From NCBI GenBank assembly GCA_027533425.1, contig JAPZUD010000008.1, forward strand, positions 1 to 64,000: a stretch of 64,000 nucleotides of DNA, written 5' to 3'. Positions within the stretch are counted from its first letter, which is position 1. Each line of letters begins with the position of its first letter. The notes beneath the pieces were generated by a model. The model had not been told where the DNA came from. It made no database searches and saw only the letters and a program-made list of their open reading frames with translations. Source of the stretch: Beijerinckiaceae bacterium (GTDB taxonomy: Bacteria > Pseudomonadota > Alphaproteobacteria > Rhizobiales > Beijerinckiaceae). Positions 16,658 to 59,435 of the stretch are shown piece by piece. The position numbers were made by a program, and so were the translations under genes.

Positions 16658-18148
16658 ATGCAGGCTGTTTCCGCCTTCCTCATCCCCTTCCTCGATATCC
16701 AGCTGCTCGGGCTTGTCGCAGCGGGCACGTTCGCCGGCATCTATATCGGCGCGATTCCCGGCCTCTCCGTCACGATGGCGGTGTCGATCCTGATTTCCTT
16801 CACCTTCGCCTGGCCGGTCTACCCGGCCCTCGCACTGATGATCGGCATCTTCATGGGCGGGGTCTATGGCGGCTCACGCACGGCGATCCTGCTGAACATT
16901 CCCGGTGCACCGGCGGCCATCGCCACGGGGCTCGACGGCTACCCCATGGCCAAGAAGGGCGAAGCGGGCGAGGCGATCGGCATCACCACGGTCATGTCGT
17001 TCTTCGGAGGTGCGGTCGGCATCATCGTGCTGGCCGTCGCCGCGCCGATGGTCTCCGAATTCGCGCTGAAGTTCCAGCCGCGCGACTACATGCTACTCGC
17101 CGTTCTCGGCATCCTGCTGGTCGGCTCGCTCTCGGGCGAGAGCCTGATCAAGGGTATCTTCGCCGGCGCCTTCGGCATTCTCATCGGCACGGTGGGGCTC
17201 GACCCGCTGACCATCGCCGACCGGTTCACCTTCGGGTTCAGCGAATTGCGCGGCGGCATCTCCTTCGTCGCGGTCATGATCGGGATGTTCGGCATTTCCG
17301 AGGCTTTGGTGCAACTGCACGACGTGAACAAGGCAGCGGTGCGCCAGCAGATCAACCGCATCGTGCCGTCCTGGAGCACGATCACGAAATACCTGCCGCT
17401 CTCGCTGCGCTGCTCCGGGATCGGCGTGATCATCGGCGCCCTGCCCGGCACCGGCGGCGATATCGCCGCGCTCATGGCCTATGACCATGCCAAGCGCACG
17501 ACCAAGAACCCCGAAGTCCCGTTCGGCGAGGGCGCGCGCGAGGGGCTCGTCGCGCCGGAAACCGCCAACAACGCAGCGGTCGGCGGCGCCTTCATCCCCA
17601 TGATGACCCTGGGCATCCCGGGCGATGCTGTCACCGCGATCATGATCGGCGCGCTCTTCATCCACGGGCTCAACCCGGGACCGATGTTGATGATCGACAA
17701 GCCGGACATGTTCTGGTTCATCGTCGGCGCGCTGACCCTCGCCAATGTCTTCATGCTGATCTTCGGCCTGACCGGCATCCGCTTCTTCGTGAAGGTGGTG
17801 GAGACGCCCCGGAGCGTGCTCATCCCGGTCATCATCCTGCTTTCGATCGTCGGCGCCTATGCCGTGAAATCCTCGCTTGTCGACGTCTACTGGATGCTCG
17901 GCTTCGGCGTGCTCGGCTATTTCATGAAGCTCTATGGCTTCCAGCTCGGCCCGGTCATCCTCGGGGTGATCCTGTCGCGCCTGCTCGACGATAACTGGCG
18001 ACGCGCCATCATCTCCGATCAGGAAAGCCTACCGATGTTGCTCAAGGGCATCGTCACAAGCCCGCTCTCGCTCGTGCTGTTCTCCGCCGTCCTGTTCATT
18101 CTGCTCGCGCCGCTCTGGCGCAAGGTGACGGCGCGCCGGGCGGCCTGA
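16658..18148 (+). CDS. TTT family large permease (TctA)
   Basis: GIYIGAIPGLSVTMAVSILISFTF, NIPGAPAAIATGLDGYPMAKKGEA. Confidence 0.95.
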   Translation: MQAVSAFLIPFLDIQLLGLVAAGTFAGIYIGAIPGLSVTMAVSILISFTFAWPVYPALALMIGIFMGGVYGGSRTAILLNIPGAPAAIATGLDGYPMAKKGEAGEAIGITTVMSFFGGAVGIIVLAVAAPMVSEFALKFQPRDYMLLAVLGILLVGSLSGESLIKGIFAGAFGILIGTVGLDPLTIADRFTFGFSELRGGISFVAVMIGMFGISEALVQLHDVNKAAVRQQINRIVPSWSTITKYLPLSLRCSGIGVIIGALPGTGGDIAALMAYDHAKRTTKNPEVPFGEGAREGLVAPETANNAAVGGAFIPMMTLGIPGDAVTAIMIGALFIHGLNPGPMLMIDKPDMFWFIVGALTLANVFMLIFGLTGIRFFVKVVETPRSVLIPVIILLSIVGAYAVKSSLVDVYWMLGFGVLGYFMKLYGFQLGPVILGVILSRLLDDNWRRAIISDQESLPMLLKGIVTSPLSLVLFSAVLFILLAPLWRKVTARRAA

Positions 18149-18198
18149 GGGGCGCAACGCTTCGCGAACGGCGTTCAATCATGGAGCCGAAAACAGGC

Positions 18199-18537
18199 TG
18201 GAGCGGGTGAAGGGAATCGAACCCGGATCTTCTGCCGATCCGCTCCGGGCGAAGCCCGACCGCGGATCGGAAACGGCTACGAGGGTTCGATCACGTGCTG
18301 GTAAAAAGAGCTGGAGCGGGTGAAGGGAATCGAACCCGGATCTTCTGCCGATCCGCTCCGGGCGAAGCCCGACCGCGGATCGGAAATGGCTGCGAGGGTT
18401 CGATCACGTGCCGGTAACAAGAGCTGGAGCGGGTGAAGGGAATCGAACCCGGATCTTCTGCCGATCCGCTCCGGGCGAAGCCCGACCGCGGATCGGAAAC
18501 GGCTACGAGGGTTCGATCACGTGCCGGTAACAAGAGC
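18199..18537. repeat. Three tandem 113-bp repeats abutting tRNA-Gly
   Basis: Units at 18199, 18312, 18425; exact 113-bp period, only a few SNPs; each begins with TGGAGCGGGTGAAGGGAATCGAACCC, identical to the tRNA-Gly 3' end. Confidence 0.97.
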
Positions 18538-18611
18538 TGGAGCGGGTGAAGGGAATCGAACCCTCGTATTCAGCTTGGAAGGCTGCTGCTCTACCATTGA
18601 GCTACACCCGC
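18538..18611 (-). tRNA. tRNA-Gly (anticodon TCC), CCA encoded
   Basis: GCGGGTGTAGCTCAATGGTAGAGCAGCAGCCTTCCAAGCTGAATACGAGGGTTCGATTCCCTTCACCCGCTCCA on minus strand. Confidence 0.98.
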
Positions 18612-18805
18612 ATCGAATGGCTAGGTAGCTGCGCCGCGCGGCGATGGCAAGGGCAGCGTTGGATCCGGATTCAGTTCGGGAACTCGTTCATCCGGAAATC
18701 AACTCGATCCGTCAGATACTTGGCGGCAATTCCAGAATCGAGTCGGCAAGGGCTTGAATCAATCCACGAGCGAATTGAATCACGTTCACAGGCGGTATTC
18801 GAGCG

Positions 18806-19666
18806 TCAGCCGAACACGACCGTCCGGCTGCCATTGAGGAAAACGCGGTCCTCGAGATGGGCCAGCACCGCCTTCGCCAGCACGCGGCGCTCGATATCGC
18901 GCCCTTTCCGGACAAGGTCATCCGGCGTGTCGGCATGGCTGATCCGCTCGACATCCTGGTCGATGATCGGTCCCTCGTCGAGATCGCCGGTCACGTAATG
19001 CGCGGTCGCGCCGATCAGCTTCACGCCGCGCGCATGGGCCTGATGGTAGGGCCGCGCGCCCTTGAAGCCGGGCAGGAAGGAATGGTGGATATTGATGCAA
19101 CGGCCGGCGAGCTCGCGGGCCAGTTCGTCCGAGAGCACCTGCATGTAGCGCGCAAGCACCACCAGCTCGGCGCCGGTCGAGCGGATCAGGCTGCGGAGCG
19201 AGGCCTCCTGCGCGGCCTTGGTTTCGCGGGTCACCGGCATGTAACGGAAATCGAGGCCCTGCAGGTCGACATCGCCGAACTTCTCGCGCGGATGGTTCGA
19301 GGCCACCGCCACGATCTCCATCGGCAATTCGCCGATCTTCTTCCGGTAGATCAGGTCCGCGAGGCAATGGTCGAAGCCGGAGACCATGATCAGCACCTTG
19401 CGGCGCTCGCCCTGCGGCCGCATCGACCATTGCATGCCGAACCGCCCCGACAGCGCCTGGAACTCGCTCCGCAGACGTTGCGCGGCATCCGGCTCACCGC
19501 CCGGCGAGAAGACCACACGCATGAAGAACGTGTCGCTTTCCAGATCATCGAACTGGCGGGCATCGAGGATGTTGCAGCCGCGCTCGAACAGGAAGGTCGA
19601 GACAGCGGCCACGATGCCGGGACGATCCGGGCAGGACAGGCGGAGAACGAGCGGTTGGCTGTGCAT
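18806..19666 (-). CDS. purU: Formyltetrahydrofolate deformylase
   Basis: N-terminal ACT domain plus formyltransferase core ([44 protein letters not shown]). Confidence 0.96.
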
Positions 19667-49982: not shown

Positions 49983-50045
49983 CCTGTTGAGCACCCCCTT
50001 CAAGCGTATGATATCAAACGATTTCAATATCTTACTAGCTTGTTT

Positions 50046-50080
50046 GGGGTACGCAAATGGGGTACGCAACGGGGACTCGG
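50046..50080 (+). repeat. Left iteron triplet GGGGTACGCAA / GGGGTACGCAA / GGGGACTCGG
   Basis: Starts at 50046, 50059, 50071; same spacing (13 then 12) as the right-end triplet. Confidence 0.85.
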
Positions 50081-59288: not shown

Positions 59289-59400
59289 GGTCCTAGGGCT
59301 CCTACCGGGACAACAAGGCTTTGATGCGCCCCTTGAAGAGAGTGCAGTGGGCTCGGGAACGATGCCAGTTAAGGGAATGCGATGGAGCGGACAAGACAGC

Positions 59401-59435
59401 GGGGTACGCAGCTGGGGTACGCAATGGGGACGCAG
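59401..59435 (+). repeat. Right iteron triplet GGGGTACGCA / GGGGTACGCAA / GGGGACGCAG
   Basis: Starts at 59401, 59414, 59426; same spacing and orientation as 50046-50080. Confidence 0.85.

Follow-up and report, generated by a model that had tools for sequence, protein, structure and literature searches.

What kind of element is a tandem array that starts directly behind a tRNA gene and whose units appear to be assembled from pieces of that same tRNA? The question is raised by the tRNA-Gly(TCC) gene of an uncultured Beijerinckiaceae bacterium (G000), which locates to positions 18538-18611 on the minus strand of the window, i.e., the whole stretch of 64,000 nucleotides that was analysed. The gene is intact and encodes its CCA end (ARAGORN; Rfam RF00005, 72.8 bits), and given its orientation the adjoining array is the 3' trailer of tRNA-Gly and has to be read on the minus strand, to which all array features described here belong. 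TRF delimits a repeat at 18197-18563 (period 113, 3.2 copies, 97% matches), which together with unit comparison gives three 113-bp units, i.e., unit 1 adjoining the tRNA (18425-18537), unit 2 (18312-18424) and the distal unit 3 (18199-18311). A first-pass annotation had described these units as exact; this holds for their period and not for the units themselves, as units 2 and 3 each differ from unit 1 at two positions and the pairwise comparisons give 2, 2 and 4 differences in 113 positions (96-98% alike).

Read in sense orientation, each unit opens with a 20-nt spacer and a 14-nt inverted T-arm segment (anti-T); after another 7 nt comes a hairpin core of 36 nt, and after a further 10 nt the unit closes with a direct copy of the last 26 nt of the tRNA. 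The earlier proposal that the array is made from tRNA pieces was hence borne out, every unit holding a direct as well as an inverted piece. The anti-T, ATCGAACCCTCGTA (sense), is the reverse complement of the V-loop end, the T-stem 5' strand and the T-loop start of the tRNA and locates to 18504-18517 in unit 1 (inverted repeat; tRNA census), to 18391-18404 in unit 2 (inverted repeat; unit comparison) and to 18278-18291 in unit 3 (inverted repeat). About 3e-6 such 14-mers are expected by chance in the interval. The anti-T is exact in two units and carries one SNP in the middle one, a SNP which had been recognised before, whereas two SNPs of the distal unit had been missed. The core hairpin (CCGATCCGCGGTCGGGCTTCGCCCGGAGCGGATCGG in unit 1) resides at 18461-18496, 18348-18383 and 18235-18270 in units 1 to 3, in each case as a match of a core-only model (R2). 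The direct copy, GGGTTCGATTCCCTTCACCCGCTCCA, spans the T-stem position GGG, the T-loop and the acceptor up to and including the CCA and is exact in 3/3 units, at 18425-18450 (repeat search; census; unit comparison) and at 18312-18337 and 18199-18224 (repeat search; unit comparison). Behind the last copy a decayed spacer with an anti-T remnant follows at about 18165-18198, which aligns with the flank of a relative (G002) that lacks a full unit.

The array is bordered on one side by a convergent gene for a TctA-like transporter, the stop of which is at 18148, and a PurU-like deformylase gene lies upstream of tRNA-Gly, both named by reading the sequence. The purU-like gene (window 18806-19666) adjoins the array-bearing tRNA, E. 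coli tyrT also adjoins purU, and this common neighbourhood is probably a coincidence. At 18000-18900 no intrinsic terminator, i.e., a GC hairpin followed by a T run, was found, and in the array the motif present is GTTCGAT or GTTCGAA, which does not conform to the integron attC core site GTTRRRY. Elsewhere in the window, short repeats with the motif TGGGGTACG were observed at 50045-50069 and 59397-59435, one of these sites being located just behind tRNA-Tyr.

A DNA search with the 113-bp unit in its own genome returned this locus and one 27-bp piece of another tRNA, by which a generic genome-wide repeat was ruled out. The tRNA-Trp and tRNA-Lys(TTT) genes of the same genome carry homologous units whose arms match these tRNAs. 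Of the 42 tRNA matches in this genome, a census scored those for which the downstream sequence was long enough. Three of them, Gly(TCC), Trp and Lys(TTT), combine an anti-T that is 12-14 nt long and lies at +17 to +21 with an exact copy of 26 nt; all other scored tRNAs reach at most 8 nt of anti-T or of copy. All five R2 matches in this genome fall on the same three loci, i.e., on the Gly (3), Trp and Lys units, and not on a dispersed repeat unrelated to tRNA, the finding that the first-pass annotation had named as speaking against its interpretation. Within the genus, a layout search identified homologous cognate units behind tRNA-Trp in this genome, in G013 (two units) and in G015, as well as behind tRNA-Pro in G006, and a covariance model (R1) identified units behind Lys(TTT), Pro(GGG, TGG, CGG), Cys, Ser(TGA) and Gly. 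In a family sample of 119 genomes R1 also matched in two other genera, at Gly(GCC) in G068 and at Pro(GGG) in G069, and in an order sample of about 300 genomes it gave no matches outside the genus. Related hairpin cores were found in 17/17 genus genomes, mostly behind tRNAs. The direct copies at the Gly, Trp, Lys, Pro, Cys and Ser loci begin at the T-loop and extend 0-15 nt past the CCA, and loci which possess an anti-T and a hairpin without a copy (Pro in G010, Trp in G003, Gly in G006) may represent an earlier or a decayed state. Copy number varies among relatives, as detailed below, and the unit is not confined to tRNA-Gly, cognate units residing behind other tRNAs as well. The array is thus neither a one-off nor a generic repeat. 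Behind a tRNA-Met (G005:C8:8000-10000), two consecutive core hairpins were observed with no clear anti-T.

The arms of the units follow the tRNA behind which they reside. Across 23 units of the genus, the match of the anti-T into the T-stem, counted past the GAAC, averages 5.4 nt for the own tRNA versus 1.4 nt for other tRNAs. As read by eye, the anti-T pairs over more bases with the tRNA than with the direct copy of the same unit, and the 5' flank of the direct copy is the unit's own sequence, CCGG or similar. The hairpin that had been noticed between the tRNA pieces was substantiated by the alignment of 19 cores, in which compensatory changes occur at 9/9 outer pairs and 97% of the outer-stem cells are paired, a signal that is abolished when the partners are shifted by sliding. 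TRNA-free cores are few in the relatives and locate to mutL and, in G004 and G008, to the vicinity of tuf, the core being in frame in MutL of G001. The core is hence a palindrome that is able to sit elsewhere and is concentrated behind tRNAs. As a low-copy palindrome, found also in mutL of relatives, it is reminiscent of the dispersed palindromic elements of Alphaproteobacteria, with those of Rickettsia taken as the type, from which it differs in being mostly tRNA-associated, with 1-9 R2 matches per genome. One mutL site carries the palindromic core in six relatives, the outer stems being different. Among G000, G013 and G015, compared pairwise at the Gly, Trp and Lys loci on few sequences with borders set by hand, anti-T, core and copy reach identities of 92%, 97% and 91%, as compared to 71% in the spacer and 72% between anti-T and core. 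The higher conservation of anti-T and core may be due to selection or to continued templated correction.

The array had been likened to the RtT repeats (RF00391) of the E. coli tyrT locus, and this likeness proved sound, as in both systems tandem units directly follow a tRNA, each unit ends in a copy of the tRNA 3' end (19 nt in E. coli) and contains an inverted T-arm and hairpins, and the copy number is variable, zero included. The further claim that the inverted T-arm is an addition relative to RtT had to be abandoned: the E. coli tyrT/tyrV spacers and RtT units hold an inverted copy of the whole T-arm, matching at 19/22 nt in both of the two spacers tested, with 0/2000 shuffles being as good. 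The E. coli tyrT/tyrV region was matched in 5403/5426 complete genomes, whereby the annotated RtT copy counts differ, ranging from none (CE10) to six, with up to three units after tyrT and up to five after tyrV; in CE10 the post-array flank joins the CCA directly. Both systems differ in that the E. coli unit measures about 178 bp versus 113 bp here and belongs to a different tRNA, that the inverted copy covers the whole T-arm in E. coli and mainly its 5' strand here, and that one tRNA operon is known to be concerned in E. coli and several tRNAs are here. The RtT family RF00391 gave no match in the window, where only tRNA matches were obtained, and four RtT matches in the E. coli control. The Gly array is therefore RtT-like in layout and behaviour without being RtT by sequence.

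Copy number varies between relatives at more than one tRNA. At the Gly locus three units are found in this genome, at least two in G013, where contigs break inside the array, one in G015 and no complete one in G002, and at the Trp locus one unit plus a partial one in this genome face two plus a partial one in G013. Within the Gly array the units are 96-98% identical, as compared to 98/113 between G000 and G013, which documents concerted evolution. In G015, tRNA-Trp and its unit are intact and the direct copy is split after GGTTCGAATCC, the remainder of the copy and the normal downstream flank following about 20.8 kb away on the same contig; consequently, the island resides inside the copy and not inside the tRNA. 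One contig end of G012 displays the same type of junction.

We hold, with a confidence that falls a little short of even, that the array is an amplified, tRNA-sparing T-loop duplication, which arises and changes at the DNA level. It would start from a palindromic hairpin in a tRNA trailer, located beside a short stretch able to base-pair with GGTTCGA, the universal T-loop motif. During replication or repair this stretch would fold back and pair with the T-arm of the tRNA, and template switching would correct it to the cognate T-stem sequence, thereby forming the anti-T. A growing end that finishes in GGTTCGA might then re-prime at the T-loop, whereby the 3' end and the first trailer bases would be copied again downstream and the tRNA would remain whole throughout. 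The direct repeats of 26-40 bp could recombine, through which units would be multiplied, lost and homogenised, and the additional tRNA 3' ends could act as spare integration sites for tRNA-targeting islands, a use of the units that is most likely secondary. It is the template-switching step, the re-priming step and any benefit to the cell that we infer here; a template-switch intermediate was not seen. Perfect stems, compensatory changes included, can be both generated and maintained by template switching (PMC8794818), hence this process predicts the compensatory changes of the core stem no less than selection does. With template-switch mutations and tandem inversion duplications the units share the direct-inverted-direct order around the palindromic TTCGA and the compensatory stem changes; these are, however, described as classes of mutation and not as a unit that is specific to tRNAs and recurs at many loci with homologous cores. 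A duplication at the DNA level leaves the spread of homologous cores over many tRNAs, mutL and the vicinity of tuf unexplained, for which the core must move, and the conservation of anti-T and core above that of the spacer counts against it and may point to selection.

An unlikely alternative considers the unit as a minimal non-autonomous cassette, which a tyrosine integrase provided in trans would insert at the T-loop with restoration of the 3' end, tandems being the result of successive insertions. A block whose borders are the T-loop on one side and the CCA, or a point just beyond it, on the other is the pattern of tRNA-targeting att sites, and the repeated block of the units conforms to it: as in integrative elements, a direct repeat runs from the T-loop to the 3' end, restoring the latter, and the tRNA is kept intact. 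Partial tRNA copies at the ends of islands have been reviewed (PMC9897764). The patchy presence of the units across different tRNAs fits a cassette, as do the islands that G014, G015 and G012 carry at the 3' end of tRNA-Trp, and the idea of an att-like array, raised in the first-pass annotation, gained support from the island that made use of a 3'-end copy in G015, the break of which abuts an integrase-like fragment (Phage_integrase, E = 0.0011, weaker than the curated cut-off). However, a recombinase is absent from the unit and from the array flanks, the unit offering no room for a gene, and 113 bp would be very small for a circular intermediate; we know of no excision product of 113-bp units. 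Unlike att sites, the units moreover each possess an inverted cognate T-arm and a hairpin at a spacing of about 110 bp, and it is the cognate nature of the anti-T that an inserted cassette leaves unexplained.

It is likewise doubtful that the trailer is a working RNA, which would affect tRNA maturation or regulation either by an alternative fold of the precursor or by RtT-like small RNAs. In such a fold, the anti-T of a co-transcribed trailer would pair with the T-arm, and the acceptor 5' strand would be bound by the 3'-end copy. In favour of an RNA role, the annotation of RtT has it processed from the tyrT transcript, and for the tRNA plus unit 1 the minimum-energy structure is predicted to sequester the T-arm (z -4.3). 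Anti-T and core also surpass the spacers in conservation, the core stem covaries, and in G068 the copy is followed by a hairpin and a T run that by eye look like a terminator. Against this, shuffling of the anti-T across 50 units barely altered the predicted pairing between T-stem and trailer (mean 3.26 versus 3.07 of 5) and left that of the acceptor at 6.2 versus 6.3 of 7, from which it follows that the folding result is independent of the anti-T. An RNA switch based on folding was hence rejected, even though the fold of tRNA plus unit looks bistable, and the suggestion of decoy or processing RNAs made in the first-pass annotation obtained no support from this control. In addition, only three tRNAs of this genome bear units, and the set varies between species. 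Least probable by far is a mobile palindrome that came to lie near tRNAs by chance and with coincidentally tRNA-like ends, or else an assembly artefact, as this explanation, to which the cores in mutL and near tuf of relatives and the position of the array at contig ends in G013 and G012 would lend themselves, is already largely refuted by the cognate arms at many different tRNAs, by the unit-specific SNPs, which argue against a simple duplicated-assembly artefact of the Gly array, and by single-unit loci inside long contigs in several genomes.

Outside the family the layout was followed by pattern searches. A strict pattern matched in 4/387 alphaproteobacterial genomes, the two belonging to the genus being clear units, and a control pattern gave no match. 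A scan of 85,462 genomes, one per species, for a T-loop motif, its reverse complement and again a T-loop motif returned 82 stretches, many of which turned out to be ordinary neighbouring tRNAs and not units. Units were found behind Ser, Pro, Phe, Asn, Met and Thr tRNAs in other Hyphomicrobiales and in further bacteria, outside Hyphomicrobiales in a Clostridia MAG, a planctomycete, an actinomycetote and Sinimarinibacterium. In 14 bacterial units from outside the genus the extension into the T-stem, for which the pattern does not select, amounts to 5.0 nt for the cognate versus 1.7 nt for non-cognate tRNAs; the similar spacing among the scan matches is no evidence, as the gap limits of the scan fix the geometry of the units that can be found. 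The layout is hence rare, recurrent and enriched in this genus. Archaeal members, suggested by about ten haloarchaeal scan loci, are not claimed, their match on the T-stem side being at chance (1.67 versus 1.69; 12 loci).

The cognate layout behind other tRNAs of relatives, considered together with RtT, points to a recurring and little-studied process at the ends of tRNA genes. Tentatively, and somewhat short of even confidence, we propose a hitherto unrecognised, recurrent bacterial class of T-loop-directed, tRNA-sparing repeats, the arms of which adapt to the local tRNA and of which RtT would be the sole described member, whereby in Hyphomicrobiales a mobile palindrome would tailor its ends to the respective tRNA. 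A description of this repeat class was not found in the open-access literature, and RtT has until now stood as an oddity of a single tRNA operon in enterobacteria. If the layout recurs behind many tRNAs and is always matched to them, either a tRNA-specific mutational process, i.e., fold-back at the T-loop, or a self-tailoring element would be at work. If true, a comparative dataset would become available on the roles of RtT-like trailers and on the reasons why tRNA 3' ends attract genomic islands. As to such islands, the one beside the split Trp copy (G015:C8:41800-54620) was found by reading to contain a respiratory nitrate reductase alpha subunit and a transporter. In G014 (C10:38000-52000), 7.3 kb between two Trp-type copies of 3' end and trailer comprise rtcR, a Ro60-like gene, rtcB and rtcA, and this RNA-repair operon segment also holds a match resembling the Y-RNA YrlA.
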